From Hydrogenophaga sp. (lineage in GTDB: Bacteria > Pseudomonadota > Gammaproteobacteria > Burkholderiales > Burkholderiaceae_C): a stretch of 64,000 nucleotides of DNA. Numbering within the stretch: position 1 is the stretch's first letter; every line of letters starts with the position of its first letter. Shown one piece after another: positions 16,556 to 64,000 of this stretch. The DNA lies in the NCBI RefSeq assembly GCF_026125785.1, contig NZ_JAHCKL010000011.1:1-64000 (forward strand), given 5' to 3'. Made by a program: the position numbers and the translations under genes. The notes under the pieces were generated by a model. The model was not told where the DNA came from, made no database searches, and saw nothing but the letters and a program-made list of their open reading frames with translations.

Positions 16556-17703
16556 GTGCCTCTCCTCAAGACGATCCCGTTGCCGTCCGGCCCGCCGAAC
16601 CCGCCGCCGCGCCGAACCCCACGCCCAGAACACGCGGTGGCGGGGTGGGCCTTGCCCTGCTGGGCCTGGCGCTGGCGGTCGCGGCGCTGGTGTTTGCCGG
16701 CCTGCTCTGGCAAAAGCTCTCGGTCACGCAGCAGGAACTGGCTCGCCGAGCTCAGGACTCCGCCACGGAAGCGGCGGACGCGCGTCGGCTGGCCGAGCAA
16801 GCAGAGGCCCTGACACAGGAACTGCAGGCCCGGCTGGCCGTGGCCGAGCTGCGGCTTTCGGAAGTCAGCCTTCAGCGCAGCCAGCTTGAAGAGCTCATGC
16901 TCTCCCTCTCGCGTTCGCGCGACGACAACCTGGTGCAGGACCTGGAGTCCGCGCTGCGGCTTGCACTGCAACATGCCCAGCTTACCGGCAGCGCGCAGCC
17001 GCTGATCTCGGCGCTGCAGGCGGCGGACCAGCGCATCGCGCGGGCCGCGCAGCCACGCCTGAACCCAGTGCAGCGCGCCATTGCGAGGGATGTCGATCGC
17101 TTGCGTGGCTCGGCTCTGGCCGATATTCCGTCCCTCGCCCTCCAACTGGACGAACTCGCCCGCCAGGTGGACGACTGGCCGCTGCTCAACCAGGTCGGAC
17201 CTGGCCACCCGGTGACCCCTGCGAGGCCCCGCAAGGAAGTACCCGGAGCCACCCAGCCAGTGGCCCGGGACGTGCAGGCCACCGAAGCGGATGCTGCCCC
17301 GCCTGCCCAAGGGTGGACGCGTGTCACGGCCTGGTGGTCCACGTGGTGGGAGCGCATCGTGGCCGACGTCACCCGCAGCGGTCGCGAACTCGTGCGCGTC
17401 AGCCGCATTGACCGGCCCGAGGCCCTGTTGCTGGCGCCGGACCAGGCGCTGTTCCTGCGCGAGAACCTCAAGCTCAAGCTGCTCAATGCCCGCCTGGGGC
17501 TGTTGGCCCGCCATATGCGCTCTGCGCAGGCCGACCTCATCGCCGTCGAAACCGCCCTGGTGCGCTATTTCGATACCTCGGCCACCTCGATCAAGCAGGC
17601 CCAGACCAGCCTGAGCCAGTTGCGCAAGGAACTCGGACAGAGCGACATGCCACGCCCTGAAGAGACCCTGGCCGCGCTCAGCGCCGCCGCGGGAGGCCGT
17701 TGA
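16552..17703 (+). CDS. hemX: HemX-like membrane-anchored protein
   Basis: 383 aa, starting inside an ATGA overlap with hemD. It has a short Pro/Ala-rich cytoplasmic N-terminus, one transmembrane helix at about 25-47 (VGLALLGLALAVAALVFAGL), then a long heptad-type coiled coil (about 50-120). The C-terminal domain ends in YFDTSATSIKQAQ. Annotated in databases as 'uroporphyrinogen-III C-methyltransferase', but it has no SAM-binding methylase motif; a scaffold or regulatory role in tetrapyrrole synthesis is more likely. Confidence 0.9.
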   Translation: MSASPQDDPVAVRPAEPAAAPNPTPRTRGGGVGLALLGLALAVAALVFAGLLWQKLSVTQQELARRAQDSATEAADARRLAEQAEALTQELQARLAVAELRLSEVSLQRSQLEELMLSLSRSRDDNLVQDLESALRLALQHAQLTGSAQPLISALQAADQRIARAAQPRLNPVQRAIARDVDRLRGSALADIPSLALQLDELARQVDDWPLLNQVGPGHPVTPARPRKEVPGATQPVARDVQATEADAAPPAQGWTRVTAWWSTWWERIVADVTRSGRELVRVSRIDRPEALLLAPDQALFLRENLKLKLLNARLGLLARHMRSAQADLIAVETALVRYFDTSATSIKQAQTSLSQLRKELGQSDMPRPEETLAALSAAAGGR

Positions 17704-59244: not shown

Positions 59245-59769
59245 TCACTCGTCCCGCGTGATTTCCTCGGCGCGAGCGGTCAGCTTCTCCAGCGTGCGCG
59301 TGAAGCTGGCCAGTTCCTCGGCGCTCAGCACATCGAACAGGCGTCGGTTCTGGGCTTCCGAATGCGGAGCGATGGAAGCGAAGAGATCTTCACCCGCTCG
59401 GGTCAGCCACAGCAGCATGCGACGGTGGTTGTCGGGGTCGCGCGCCTCCTCGACCAGGCCGCGCTTGCGCAACGCGATCACCGCACGGCTGATGTTCATC
59501 GGGTGCAGGCCCGTCGCGGCGCTCACGTCCTGGGCCGCGCTGCCTGGCCGGCTGGACAGCACCACGATGGAGCGCCACTCGTTCAGCGTCAGCGCATGCT
59601 GCCGCGCGAACTGGCCAAAGAAAGGGCGGCTCATCAGGTTGGTCAGCTTGAGCAGGCGAAAGCCCGCCATGTCCGGCGCCAGTGTCTGTGCGCCTTCGGT
59701 CGCGCGCTCGGCCACCCTGGCGCGGCGGGCGGGCGAGGCGGTGCTGGAGGATCGGGACAGGGCTTTCAT
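59245..59769 (-). CDS. MarR-family transcriptional regulator
   Basis: 174 aa. Winged HTH: LTNLMSRPFFGQFARQHALT, recognition helix GLHPMNISRAVIALRKRGLV and wing VEEARDPDNHRRMLLWLT. MarR dimers bind short palindromes and are released by small ligands, often aromatic. Divergent from the ABC transporter genes with a doubled TATCGATAAC repeat in the intervening region, so autoregulation and transporter control are likely. Confidence 0.93.
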   Translation of the reverse strand: MKALSRSSSTASPARRARVAERATEGAQTLAPDMAGFRLLKLTNLMSRPFFGQFARQHALTLNEWRSIVVLSSRPGSAAQDVSAATGLHPMNISRAVIALRKRGLVEEARDPDNHRRMLLWLTRAGEDLFASIAPHSEAQNRRLFDVLSAEELASFTRTLEKLTARAEEITRDE

Positions 59770-59832: not shown

Positions 59833-59864
59833 GATATCGATAACATTTGATATCGATAACATTT
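59833..59864. promoter_or_regulatory. Duplicated MarR-type operator (two 16-bp direct repeats)
   Basis: The 16-bp unit GATATCGATAACATTT occurs twice without spacer at 59833-59848 and 59849-59864. Each contains palindrome TATCGATA. It lies between marR and the ABC binding-protein gene. Same core (TGATATCGATA) at 6547-6557 and a one-base variant at 62619-62633. Confidence 0.7.
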
Positions 59865-59916
59865 GACCCATATCAAACAGCTTGCCTCTGCGAGCCCACC
59901 CAGCAGGAGACTTCCG

Positions 59917-60825
59917 ATGCCATCCAGACCTTCCCACTCCCGTGCCCTGGCGGGTGCTGGCCACTTGCTGTACCGCGCGCTGTGCCTGGGTGCATTGACT
60001 TGGGCCCTTGGCACCACCGCGTCCGCTCAGACGGTTCAGGCCCCGTTCTTCGACCGCCTGCCCGCATCGGTCAAAAGCACCAAGGTGCTGCGCATGGTCG
60101 GTGACTCTTTTGCTCCCTACCGCATCGTGGGAGACGATAGCAAGACCGTCACCGGGATCGACGCCGACATGGCGCGGGCGCTGGAGCCGTTGCTGGGCGT
60201 GAAGATCGAGCTGACCATTGTCAGCAACCTGCCGGCCATGCTGGCCGGCATTGACACCGGCCGCTACGATTTTTCCGCCGGTCCGCTGCTATCCACCAAG
60301 GCGCGCGAAGAGCGCTACGACATCCTGACCTGGCTGCTGAGCAAACCGGCTTTCGTGTTGCCTGTGGCTGGCGGGCGCAAGACCTCCCGGCTGGAGGACC
60401 TGTGCGGCCTTCGCATTTCCTTCCCTGCAGGTTCCGCGCAAGAGGAATATGCGCGCAAGGTCAGCGAACGCTGTGTCAGCAGCAAACAGCCGACCATGCA
60501 ACTGGTGCCGCTGGCGGACCAGAATGCCACCGTGCTGGCGGCTCAGTCGGGCCGGGCCGATGTGGCCGGGATGCAGCTCGCTGCCGCGCTGTACCTGCAA
60601 CAGCGCAACCCTGGCAAGTTCACCATACAGACGGACGAGACCGACGGTCTGGGCATCCTCAACCAGGGCTTCGTGCTCAAGAAGAATGCCGAGCTCAGCC
60701 CGGTGCTGCACGACGCGCTCAAACAGGTGTGGGCGTCCGGTGAATACGGGCGCATCATGGACAAATGGGGCCTGACGCTGGCCAAGGCACCCGAACCCCG
60801 CTTGAACCCATCCAGCGGAAAGTGA
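59917..60825 (+). CDS. ABC transporter substrate-binding protein (family 3)
   Basis: 302 aa. Signal peptide with the long positively charged start MPSRPSHSRALAGAGHLLYR and cleavage near ASA. LRMVGDSFAPYRIVGDDSKT and GIDADMARALEPLLGVKIEL are family-3 amino-acid-binding signatures. It has a good ribosome-binding site (CAGGAGA). With the next two genes it forms an importer, likely for a polar compound; ligand not known. Confidence 0.93.
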   Translation: MPSRPSHSRALAGAGHLLYRALCLGALTWALGTTASAQTVQAPFFDRLPASVKSTKVLRMVGDSFAPYRIVGDDSKTVTGIDADMARALEPLLGVKIELTIVSNLPAMLAGIDTGRYDFSAGPLLSTKAREERYDILTWLLSKPAFVLPVAGGRKTSRLEDLCGLRISFPAGSAQEEYARKVSERCVSSKQPTMQLVPLADQNATVLAAQSGRADVAGMQLAAALYLQQRNPGKFTIQTDETDGLGILNQGFVLKKNAELSPVLHDALKQVWASGEYGRIMDKWGLTLAKAPEPRLNPSSGK

Positions 60826-60835
60826 TGCGCCAGCC

Positions 60836-61768
60836 ATGACACAGGGAAGCGTTGCCATGCCTGTCCATCCCCGCCTGTCCGCAGCCGCAGGTGCCACCGA
60901 ACCGGTGGACGTCGCGACGGCCCGCCACCGCACGAGTCCGCTGCGCTGGGGCATGACCTTGCTGCTGTTGGTGGTGGCCCTGCAGGTGGTCTACTTCCTC
61001 TTCACCAACCCGCGCTTCGAATGGGCCGTGGTGTGGAAGTACCTGTTCTCGGTCAACATCTTGCTGGGCCTGGGCACCACTCTGATGCTCACTGCGCTGG
61101 CGATGGTGATCGGCATCGTGATCGGCACCATCGCCGCGCTGGCCCTGATCTCGGACTTCAAGCCGGGTCGGTGGGCGGCCCAGACCTATCTGTGGGCCTT
61201 CCGCGGAACGCCCCTGCTGATCCAACTGATCTTTTGGTACAACCTGGCGTACCTGATTCCGAACATCTCCATCGGGCTGCCTTTCCTGCCGCCACTGGCG
61301 CAGTGGTCGACGAACACGGTCATCACGCCCTTTCTGGCCGCCTTGCTGGGCCTGGGCCTGGCCGAAGGGGCCTACATGACGGAGATCGTGCGGGCAGGGC
61401 TGTCGTCGGTGGACCCGCGCCAGCACGATGCGGCCAAGGCTCTGGGCATGACGCCATCCAAGTCTTTCTTCCGCATCATCTTTCCGCAGGCCATGCGTTT
61501 CATCATTCCGCCCACGGGCAACCAGATCATCGGCATGGCCAAGGCCACTGCGCTGGTCAGCGTGATCGCCATGAACGACCTGCTGCATTCGGTGCAGATC
61601 ATCTACAACCGGACCTATGAAATCGTGCCGCTGCTGCTGGTGGCCGTGTTCTGGTACCTGGCGGTCATCACCTTGATGTACGCCTTCCAGTCCCGGCTGG
61701 AACGCCACTACTCCAAAGGCCATCGCCGCGATGCCGCGCCGTCCGCCACGCCGACCGGACAGGCATAG
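60836..61768 (+). CDS. ABC transporter permease (HisM/GlnP type)
   Basis: 310 aa, with five or more membrane segments. N-terminal leader of about 35 residues, then LGTTLMLTALAMVIGIVIG. The EAA loop is EGAYMTEIVRAGLSSVDPRQ, followed by HDAAKALGMTPSKSFFRI. Starts 10 bp after the binding-protein gene. Appears to be the only permease gene, so it probably homodimerises. Confidence 0.93.
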   Translation: MTQGSVAMPVHPRLSAAAGATEPVDVATARHRTSPLRWGMTLLLLVVALQVVYFLFTNPRFEWAVVWKYLFSVNILLGLGTTLMLTALAMVIGIVIGTIAALALISDFKPGRWAAQTYLWAFRGTPLLIQLIFWYNLAYLIPNISIGLPFLPPLAQWSTNTVITPFLAALLGLGLAEGAYMTEIVRAGLSSVDPRQHDAAKALGMTPSKSFFRIIFPQAMRFIIPPTGNQIIGMAKATALVSVIAMNDLLHSVQIIYNRTYEIVPLLLVAVFWYLAVITLMYAFQSRLERHYSKGHRRDAAPSATPTGQA

Positions 61769-61783
61769 GTCGTTGGAAATTCC

Positions 61784-62575
61784 ATGCAGAACCTTCATTC
61801 TTCTTCCGGCCCGCAGGGCCACGTGCTCCGACTGCACAAGATCGTCAAACGCTATGGCAGCCTTCAGGTTCTCAACGAAGTCTCTCTGGACATCGACGAA
61901 GGCGAGGTGGTCGCGGTGATCGGCCCATCGGGTTCGGGCAAGTCGACGCTTGTGCGTTGCATTCACCAACTCGAAACCATTGAGGGGGGCTCCATCTGCC
62001 TGAACGGCGAACTGCTGGGCTACCGGCAGGAGGGCGAGCATCTTCGCGCCCTCAGCCCCAGAGAGCTGGCCCGGCAGCGGCAGCAATTGGGCATGGTGTT
62101 CCAGCAGTTCGGCCTCTTTCCCCACATGACGGTGGAGGAAAACGTCATGGAAGGACCGGTGCAGGTGCTGGGTGACACCGTTGCCGATGCGCGCACACGT
62201 GCCCACCACCTGCTGGGACGGGTGGGGCTGGCCGACAAGGTGCATGCCTACCCGCAGATGCTCTCCGGCGGGCAGCAGCAGCGCGTGGCGATTGCCCGCG
62301 CCCTGGCGATGCGGCCCAAGGTCATGCTGTTCGACGAACCGACCAGCGCGCTGGACCCCGAGTTGGTCGGTGAGGTTCTCAACGTGGTGTCGGACCTGGC
62401 CAAGGCGGGCAAGACGATGGTGATCGTCACGCACGAGATCGCCTTCGCCCGTGAGGTCGCGTCCCGTGTCGTGTTCATGGAGGGCGGGCGCATCCTGGAA
62501 CAGGGTGACGCACGTGAAACCTTGTCGAACCCGAAGACCGAGCGTCTGCGCACGTTTCTCTCCAGGGTGATGTGA
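61784..62575 (+). CDS. ABC transporter ATP-binding protein (polar amino acid type)
   Basis: 263 aa. Walker A GPSGSGKSTLVRC, Q-loop VFQQFGLFPHM, signature LSGGQQQRVAIARAL, Walker B VMLFDEPTSALDPE and H-loop VTHEIAFARE. GlnQ/HisP type. Follows the permease by 15 bp. Ends about 95 bp before the AtuA-type gene; a T-run at 62596-62603 lacks a convincing stem. Confidence 0.95.
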   Translation: MQNLHSSSGPQGHVLRLHKIVKRYGSLQVLNEVSLDIDEGEVVAVIGPSGSGKSTLVRCIHQLETIEGGSICLNGELLGYRQEGEHLRALSPRELARQRQQLGMVFQQFGLFPHMTVEENVMEGPVQVLGDTVADARTRAHHLLGRVGLADKVHAYPQMLSGGQQQRVAIARALAMRPKVMLFDEPTSALDPELVGEVLNVVSDLAKAGKTMVIVTHEIAFAREVASRVVFMEGGRILEQGDARETLSNPKTERLRTFLSRVM

Positions 62576-62617
62576 GCGGGTCGCGGCGTCTCTCCTTTTT
62601 TTTGCCCACTCAGTAAC

Positions 62618-62633
62618 TTTTGATATTGATAAC
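62618..62633. promoter_or_regulatory. Operator variant upstream of the AtuA-family gene
   Basis: TTTTGATATTGATAAC differs by one base from TTTGATATCGATAAC at 59846-59860 (14 of 15 bases). It lies about 40 bp upstream of the AtuA-family start, consistent with control by the same MarR protein. Confidence 0.6.
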
Positions 62634-62670: not shown

Positions 62671-64000
62671 ATGACTCGCCATATCCGCTACCTGTCGCCC
62701 ACCGGCGTGTTGGGCGTGGGCTTCTCCGAGAGCCACTTTCGCGCGGCACTCTCGCGTGGCCTGGCCTTCATCGGCTGCGATGCGGGTTCCACCGACGGTG
62801 GCCCCGCCAACCTGGGCGGCAACAAGCCTTTCTTCTCCCGAGCGGCGATCAAGCGCGACCTGCGCATCCTGGTCACCGGTGCGCGTTCCATCGGGGTGCC
62901 CCTGCTGATCGGCTCGTGCGGCGGCAGCGGCGGCAACTGGAACCTGAACTGGGTGCGCGAGATCGTGCTGGAGATTGCCCGCGAAGAGGACCTGCATTTC
63001 CGTATCGCTGTGATCGAGTCCGAGCCGCCACGCGAGCTGCTGCTGAAGAAGTACCGCGAGGGCCGCATCCGCCCGCTGGACCCGGCGCCCGAAATCAGCG
63101 AGGCCGTGCTGGAGAATGCCGACCACATCGTTGCCATGATGGGCGCGGAAGCGTACGTCGCCGCGCTGGAGGGCGGGGCGGACGTGGTCCTGGCCGGCCG
63201 TTCCACCGACGCCGCCATCTTCGCCGCGCTTCCGGTGGCGCGGGGCTTTCCGCCGGGGCTGTGCTGGCATGCCGCCAAGATCATGGAGTGCGGTGGCGCC
63301 GCGGTGGTCACGATGGAAAAGCCCGAAGGCATGATCTGCACGATCACCGACGAGCACTTCACGCTGGAGCCGGTGAGCCCTGTGCAGCGCTGTTCGCCGC
63401 TCAGCGTGGCCGCGCACGCGCTGTACGAAACTGCGGACCCCTACCGCATGCTGGAGCCTGGTGGCGAAATGGACCTCACCGGGGCACGCTACGAGGCCGT
63501 CAACGACCGCGAGGTGCGCGTCAGCGGCAGCGAGTTCCGGCCCATGCCCTACACCGTCAAGCTCGAAGGCGCGAGCCTCATCGGGTACCGGGCCATGGTG
63601 CTCGGTGGCGTGCGGGACCCCGTGATCCTGGAGCAGTTCGACACCTGGTTCGATGGCCTCAAGGACCACATCGCCGAAAACGTCGAGGCGGTCTACGGGC
63701 CGACCATCCGCGGGCAGTACCAGATCCACTACAAGCTGTACGGCAAGTCCGGTGTGATGGGCGAGCGAGAGCCCTGTGCCGGGCAGACGGGTCACGAGAT
63801 CGGGCTGCTCATGGTGACGCTGGCGCAAAGCCAGGAAGTGGCCTACGCGATTGCGGGGCAGGCCGCGCACATGGTGCTCCACCACGCGGTTCCGCAGTGG
63901 CAGGGCCTGCTCTCCAACCTGGCTTTCCCCATCGCGCCGCATTTCTGGAACCTGGGCGAGGCCTACCAGTTCGTGCTCAACCACGTGGTCGAACTCGACC
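62671..64000 (+). CDS. AtuA-family (DUF1446) protein, 5' part, cut by the window end
   Basis: 443 residues visible, continuing past 64000. Starts MTRHIRYLSPTGVLGVGFSE with AAGGA 10 nt upstream. DUF1446 signatures CDAGSTDGGPANLGG, IGSCGGSGGNWNLNW and ADVVLAGRSTDAAIFAALPV are clear. In Pseudomonas AtuA belongs to acyclic terpene (citronellol) utilisation, but members occur in many clusters and the activity is unknown. Usually paired with a DUF4387 gene, which should lie just outside the window. Confidence 0.9.
   Translation, partial: MTRHIRYLSPTGVLGVGFSESHFRAALSRGLAFIGCDAGSTDGGPANLGGNKPFFSRAAIKRDLRILVTGARSIGVPLLIGSCGGSGGNWNLNWVREIVLEIAREEDLHFRIAVIESEPPRELLLKKYREGRIRPLDPAPEISEAVLENADHIVAMMGAEAYVAALEGGADVVLAGRSTDAAIFAALPVARGFPPGLCWHAAKIMECGGAAVVTMEKPEGMICTITDEHFTLEPVSPVQRCSPLSVAAHALYETADPYRMLEPGGEMDLTGARYEAVNDREVRVSGSEFRPMPYTVKLEGASLIGYRAMVLGGVRDPVILEQFDTWFDGLKDHIAENVEAVYGPTIRGQYQIHYKLYGKSGVMGEREPCAGQTGHEIGLLMVTLAQSQEVAYAIAGQAAHMVLHHAVPQWQGLLSNLAFPIAPHFWNLGEAYQFVLNHVVELD

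Follow-up and report, generated by a model that had tools for sequence, protein, structure and literature searches.

In this study, we analyzed a stretch of 64,000 nucleotides from Hydrogenophaga sp. (hereafter the window; contig C3, positions 1-64000, of an assembly labelled G000 that comprises 4,167,306 bases in 46 contigs and is 93.84% complete), and identified a 20-bp inverted repeat (dyad) that occurs both in the promoter region shared by a marR-type gene and an ATP-binding cassette (ABC) transporter operon and before an operon starting with an AtuA-family gene. Judging from the sequence comparisons described below, a MarR-family repressor probably controls the uptake and breakdown of one carboxylic acid through these dyads, the breakdown involving an AtuA-type cleavage. 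The gene annotation covers the cluster up to position 69663, and the ten proteins from marR to panE were scanned against Pfam and NCBIfam models. As guessed in an earlier note on this DNA, the rest of the cluster lies past position 64000, where the operon runs on and includes a DUF4387 gene (Table 1).

A protein scan of genome contigs yielded eight loci with AtuA homologs, seven of which were 77-91% identical to the AtuA protein of the window: L029 and L030 (Hydrogenophaga bins), L031 (Paraburkholderia solitsugae), L032 (an Alcaligenaceae bin), L033 (Advenella mandrilli), L034 (Cupriavidus lacunae) and L035 (Advenella faeciporci). A further close copy (L037, AtuA 86% identical) was found in G176, a member of the same family. 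The remaining locus, L036 (AtuA 43% identical), had no marR match on its 10.4-kb contig and was excluded from the operator counts. The marR gene was present in all nine close loci, the window included, and its orthologs in the other eight were 55-76% identical (one of them partial). The order atuA-DUF4387-tauD-prpD-aldolase-panE was observed in all eight loci that were long enough (L030 ends inside atuA), with panE split over two frames in L031. The cluster appeared to be patchily distributed: an AtuA homolog could be detected at E <= 1e-60 in 12 of 299 family genomes, close copies occurred only in G000 and G176, and none of the three genomes listed for this genus gave a match at this threshold.

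Comparison of the nine loci revealed a conserved dyad, TCRRTAAC-WWWW-GWTAYYGA, consisting of the core RTAAC-WWWW-GWTAY and the outer arms TCR/YGA, which was present at both places in the window locus and in the eight orthologous clusters. The cores in the window are ATAACATTTGATAT at 59840-59853, where the two copies of a direct repeat meet, and GTAACTTTTGATAT at 62613-62626. On the marR side, the core was exact in seven of the nine loci and had two mismatches in the other two, one of which (L031) carries a perfect palindrome (TCATTAACAATTGTTAATGA). On the atuA side, it was exact in four loci, had one mismatch in another four and, by inspection, three mismatches in L037. Within the whole genome, the core RTAACWWWWGWTAY matched exactly at two places only, before marR/ABC and before atuA; allowing one mismatch added two more places, C7:22787 within a mechanically defined open frame of 152 amino acids and C18:27778 near the end of one of 335 amino acids. 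Exact core matches at any position were found in 25 of 200 family genomes, including G000 and G176.

We also used ten sites of L031-L035 to build a symmetrised 20-bp matrix, which was run over the loci outside this training set; the null comprised 64-kb sequences generated with a first-order Markov model (n = 100). The best two scores of the window were both dyads (32.26 bits on the atuA side and 31.42 bits on the marR side), compared with a null maximum of 19.27 bits, and the third score (12.78 bits) overlapped the marR-side dyad. The two promoter dyads were likewise the top two hits in L029, L030 and L037. It might be argued that such conservation merely reflects recent horizontal sharing of promoters and that the motif has no regulatory role, with which the high identity of AtuA across the close loci and the occurrence of close copies in only two of the family genomes would agree. 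However, the remaining intergenic DNA differs between groups (by inspection) while the dyads persist, and the dyad recurs before other genes, namely a marR linked to a major facilitator superfamily (MFS) carrier in L031 and a porin-like gene in L034. We therefore consider horizontal sharing alone very unlikely, and favor a role of the dyads as MarR operators. In L034 (Cupriavidus lacunae), a dyad with an exact core (17520-17539) and a T tract precede the porin-like gene, which, judging by this promoter, probably also belongs to the regulon in this organism as its third member.

The dyad was not the unit that had been recognized before. The earlier note had reported a 16-bp direct repeat, GATATCGATAACATTT, twice at 59833-59864 and a related word, TTTGATATTGATAAC, at 62619-62633, and had placed them next to a MarR-type gene, an ABC operon and an AtuA-family gene; the words could be confirmed at the positions given, and the flanking genes are as described, with the ABC operon at 59917-62575. 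With up to three mismatches, TTTGATATYGATAAC had three matches in the window, whereas 0.16 were expected, and none of 100 shuffles reached three. Exact copies of GATATYGATAAC were confined to three places in the genome, all in the window, rather than being scattered over many unrelated sites, which the note had named as the pattern that would speak against it; one mismatch gave eight more match lines (seven places), and no further copies were found between the window end and position 78999. Thus, the repeats are real, but the 15-mer or 16-bp direct repeat is not the conserved unit. A 12-mer taken from it was missing near atuA, at up to two mismatches, in L031, L032, L033, L035 and L037, and since the 15-mer was only partly kept in relatives, the 20-bp dyad was taken as the unit instead. 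The centre of the dyad is the A/T spacer beside the words of the earlier note, and the unit is thus shifted relative to them. In the marR/ABC region, dyads overlap at a spacing of 16 bp, a weaker second core with two mismatches being located at 59856-59869; second marR-side cores with one mismatch were also present in L032, L033 and L035. Such a chain of overlapping dyads at a 16-bp phase accounts for the 16-bp direct repeat.

Another possibility is that the words are sites for the FNR/CRP family and not for MarR, because TTGATATCGATAAC resembles TTGAT-N4-ATCAA. Indeed, the box TTGAYNNNNRTCAA at 59863-59876, which we take to be FNR/CRP-like, was exact in L008, L030 and L037 and had at most one mismatch in L029, L032, L033 and L035, so that it lies beside the operator in all seven ABC-bearing loci and overlaps the dyad in L037, and 26 such boxes were counted in the genome versus 8 for the reversed pattern. 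On the other hand, the FNR form is poor at the marR promoter of L031 and, as judged by eye, at the majority of the atuA promoters, where RTAAC-N4-GWTAY is kept. In addition, six of the seven ABC loci carry the box apart from the dyad and downstream of it; in the two MFS-bearing loci, the best match to TTGAYNNNNRTCAA had two mismatches and fell on a dyad. It is thus highly improbable that FNR/CRP-type recognition explains the conserved words, and MarR remains the favored candidate for binding the dyads. When the intergenic DNA of each locus was shuffled 300 times, 1-12% of the shuffles reached one mismatch to TTGAYNNNNRTCAA, and the conservation of the box is therefore suggestive only; a second regulatory input is possible.

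The regulator itself matched PF12802 (MarR_2) with 28.0 bits (cut-off 27), and PF01047 with 23.3 bits, which is under the cut-off of 24.6. Its best NCBIfam match was HpaR (TIGR02337), with 47 bits against a cut-off of 121.2, and it is therefore not HpaR. The motif M-N-x-S-R-A was invariant in the eight aligned MarR sequences. The open frame of marR extends over the operator as far as a GTG at position 59964, whereas alignment of homologs favored the ATG at 59769. HpaR-type MarR regulators are autoregulated, are encoded beside their targets and use A/T-rich dyad operators; the system described here resembles them in this arrangement, as far as it is predicted, and in its best model match but stays under the HpaR cut-off. 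The cluster appears to be a MarR-controlled catabolic cluster of a known type with an unusual enzyme set.

In two of the eight full loci (L031 and L034), the cluster contained an MFS carrier, for which an aromatic acid/H+ symport model scored best though under its cut-off; no match to the ABC genes could be found in the stretch analyzed for these loci, and the dyads stayed in place. Exchange of the importer with the operator kept suggests that the compound taken up is also the one on which the enzymes act. Together with the nine-locus conservation and the matrix test, this observation supports the proposal of the earlier note that one MarR regulon covers both import and metabolism. An alternative is that, although under common control, the ABC importer and the AtuA operon act on different compounds. 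SBP_bac_3 proteins mostly bind amino acids, which would suit this alternative; in them, a conserved Arg holds the carboxylate and an Asp the ammonium group. In the binding protein encoded here, the Arg aligned with the carboxylate-binding one is kept, but all seven orthologs have Gln where solved amino-acid binders have Asp, and thus they seem to lack the ammonium-binding residue. In six domain alignments to five solved chains, the Asp fell in the Gln column in four and one residue off, in an insertion, in two; the replacement gives a tentative hint of an acid that carries no free alpha-ammonium group. With this replacement and the MFS exchange, which is expected for one shared substrate, separate compounds appear unlikely, and import and breakdown of the same acid is the reading we prefer. 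The substrate is probably a carboxylic acid without a free alpha-amino group, to judge from the binding-site alignment. Branched di- or tricarboxylates may be offered as a first guess with low confidence; among proteins of solved structure, FrbJ and IDS-epimerase come closest to the TauD and PrpD proteins, respectively, and both are too distant to name the substrate.

With regard to the AtuA protein, the earlier note had called the chemistry of this family unsolved, which is outdated for the branch found here. The protein matched PF07287 with 82.9 bits in two stretches (cut-off 22.8), and aligned over residues 1-446 of 456 with PDB chain 9erq_A (E 8.3e-102). Chain A of both 9erq and 9evf is named 'Acyclic terpene utilization AtuA family protein | Citramalate lyase, subunit A (cmlA)', and the DUF4387 protein, whose gene is directly downstream of atuA, matched 9erq_B, named 'Citramalate lyase, subunit B (cmlB)', with an E-value of 6.1e-18. 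Thus, both subunits are homologous to CmlA-CmlB over nearly their full length. No paper on 9erq was found in the open-licence literature, and the citramalate lyase assignment therefore rests on the names given by the depositors. We would place the AtuA-DUF4387 pair, on homology, in the CmlAB lyase family and not as a citramalate lyase. A comparable known arrangement is the methylaspartate cluster on the E. coli plasmid CP088669, whose AtuA protein aligned along the entire 9erq_A chain with 966.8 bits and whose DUF4387 gene is directly downstream, as here. However, the AtuA protein of the window is only ~39% identical to this E. coli protein, and the partners differ: glutamate mutase, methylaspartate ammonia-lyase and a class I fumarase in E. 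coli, compared with an oxygenase, an MmgE/PrpD protein, an aldolase and a PanE-like dehydrogenase here. An unnamed DUF1446 gene was also found beside mal in E. coli O157:H7, for which the fate of citramalate was called unclear in a passage of a 2015 paper (PMC4682846).

The Pseudomonas system for acyclic terpene utilization (AtuA/AtuR) shares the AtuA family with the cluster, but its substrate is a CoA thioester and its repressor AtuR is a TetR-type protein. No carboxylase or CoA ligase, for which the earlier note had suggested a search past position 64000, was found among the ten proteins scanned. One source (PMC4847356) describes a repressor whose targets in the atuA-atuR intergenic region are two inverted repeats of 13 bp, and counts the AtuA of terpene degradation, as a characterised or tentatively identified enzyme, among the acetate-releasing lyases; in a review, the step is assigned to LiuE (PMC4097962). 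From these findings together, we infer that the reaction type is most likely release of acetate from a beta-hydroxy acid. A second, canonical AtuA gene is present elsewhere in the genome (L057, G000:C23:101615-102985); its product matched PF07287 with 415.5 bits, far above the score of the protein discussed here, and no exact dyad core could be found on its contig C23.

Further investigation of the partner enzymes showed that the active-site residues of the oxygenase (His/Asp/His/Arg; that is, the His-X-Asp, His and Arg of TauD/TfdA) were kept in all eight close orthologs. The PrpD protein scored 64 bits against the equivalog model NF042438, for which 950 are needed. Among 51 plasmid records with an AtuA match, eight were opened, and DUF4387 adjoined AtuA in all of them, a fumarase-type gene being present in three (Klebsiella, ~5 kb further on; E. 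coli; and Neorhizobium) and MmgE/PrpD in one. Nine of 11 distant family loci were extended (L038-L046; those of G082 and G186 were left out). DUF4387 was beside AtuA in all nine, a PrpD homolog was near in four (L038, L040, L041 and L042), and PrpD, a TauD homolog and an MFS carrier occurred together in two (L038 and L040). Thus, the combination of oxygenase, PrpD, lyase and MFS carrier recurs, whereas the adjoining aldolase and PanE genes were seen in the close group only. No marR match was found in these nine distant loci, which were not part of the operator analysis. In the TauD homolog beside AtuA-DUF4387-PrpD in L040 (11614-12600), the alignment showed Arg and Tyr for two iron-binding His residues; this protein may be inactive, repurposed or misaligned.

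Several observations weigh against the regulatory and enzymatic scheme and should be considered together. The atuA-side dyad of L037 is weak (20.62 bits, with the three mismatches mentioned above). The one-mismatch core had 4 forward and 3 reverse matches in the genome versus 7 and 5 for the reversed pattern, and therefore the position of the dyads, not their number, is telling. Because the dyad pattern was written with all nine loci in view, the matrix test alone has some independence, and even its training positions were chosen by eye. L029 and L030 are congeneric, as are L033 and L035, and hence the nine loci are not independent either. No sigma-70 promoter-like site could be found at either dyad place. 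Finally, the partners of the E. coli pair (mesaconase/methylaspartate genes and glutamate mutase) were not among the ten proteins scanned.

Taking both sides into account, we consider the following model probable. A MarR-family repressor would bind the 20-bp dyads in the promoter region that its gene shares with the ABC genes and in front of the six-enzyme operon, and a pathway-related ligand would release it. The ABC importer would bring in a carboxylic acid, probably one without a free alpha-ammonium group, which the TauD-type 2-oxoglutarate oxygenase might hydroxylate. The MmgE/PrpD protein would then add or remove water, or isomerise the product, and the AtuA-DUF4387 pair could cleave the resulting beta-hydroxy acid into acetate and an oxo acid, while the aldolase and the PanE-like dehydrogenase may handle side products. 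No description of the cluster or its operator was found in the open-licence literature. The full proposal, in which this is an undescribed aerobic pathway for a non-amino carboxylic acid that is imported, hydroxylated with 2-oxoglutarate, rearranged by PrpD and split by a coenzyme A-independent, acetate-releasing AtuA-DUF4387 lyase under one MarR repressor, could in our estimation equally well hold or fail. If true, AtuA-DUF4387 proteins would generally be acetate lyases to which interchangeable hydratases (PrpD here and class I fumarases elsewhere) supply the substrate. The analysis connects lyase chemistry, a defined operator and a small group of partner enzymes with a protein pair whose annotations still read 'acyclic terpene utilization' and 'DUF4387'. 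Whatever compound releases the MarR protein from its 20-bp site would be expected to be either the substrate or a pathway intermediate.

Table 1. Features of the marR-ABC-atuA cluster and its predicted operators (positions are those of the window and its continuation).
Feature	Position	Strand	Comment
MarR-family regulator, 174 aa	59245-59769	-	Pfam MarR_2; proposed autorepressor of the cluster
16-bp direct repeat of the earlier note	59833-59864	+	both words meet in the dyad, each giving one arm
Main operator dyad TCGATAACATTTGATATCGA, 20 bp, core 59840-59853 (predicted)	59837-59856	.	marR/ABC promoter region
FNR/CRP-like box TTGACCCATATCAA	59863-59876	.	lies after the operator and ahead of the ABC operon; candidate second input
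Periplasmic binding protein, SBP_bac_3	59917-60825	+	domain match
ABC permease	60836-61768	+	BPD_transp_1
ABC ATPase	61784-62575	+	ABC_tran
T8 tract	62596-62603	+	fixed 9 bp before dyad core
Operator dyad TCAGTAACTTTTGATATTGA, 20 bp, core 62613-62626 (predicted)	62610-62629	.	precedes catabolic operon
AtuA-family gene, CmlA-like lyase subunit	62671-64041	+	PF07287; PDB 9erq_A; crosses window end at 64000
DUF4387 gene	64044-64364		9erq_B match; beyond window
TauD-type oxygenase	64412-65428		beyond window
MmgE/PrpD protein	65453-66832		beyond window
Class II aldolase	66839-67600		beyond window
PanE/ApbA-like dehydrogenase	67603-68607		beyond window
Porin-like protein	68647-69663		NF040479 37.1 bits, under cut-off 480

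Other elements could also be recognized around the dyads. A run of at least six T (6-8 T) was located 9 bp before the dyad core in nine of the ten dyad promoters compared, that is, in the window and at equivalent sites in L029, L030, L032, L033, L034 (two), L035 and L037. An intrinsic terminator between the ABC operon and atuA was considered and rejected, because no terminator-like stem is present and the T tract also occurs where no ABC gene ends upstream (L034); the tract is perhaps part of the promoter. With respect to the DUF4387 family, the domain in L066 (G554:C4:25837-26100) lies in an open frame of 242 amino acids compared with 106 amino acids here, a possible fusion, and a short stretch of G082 (L026) contained AtuA without a DUF4387 match.

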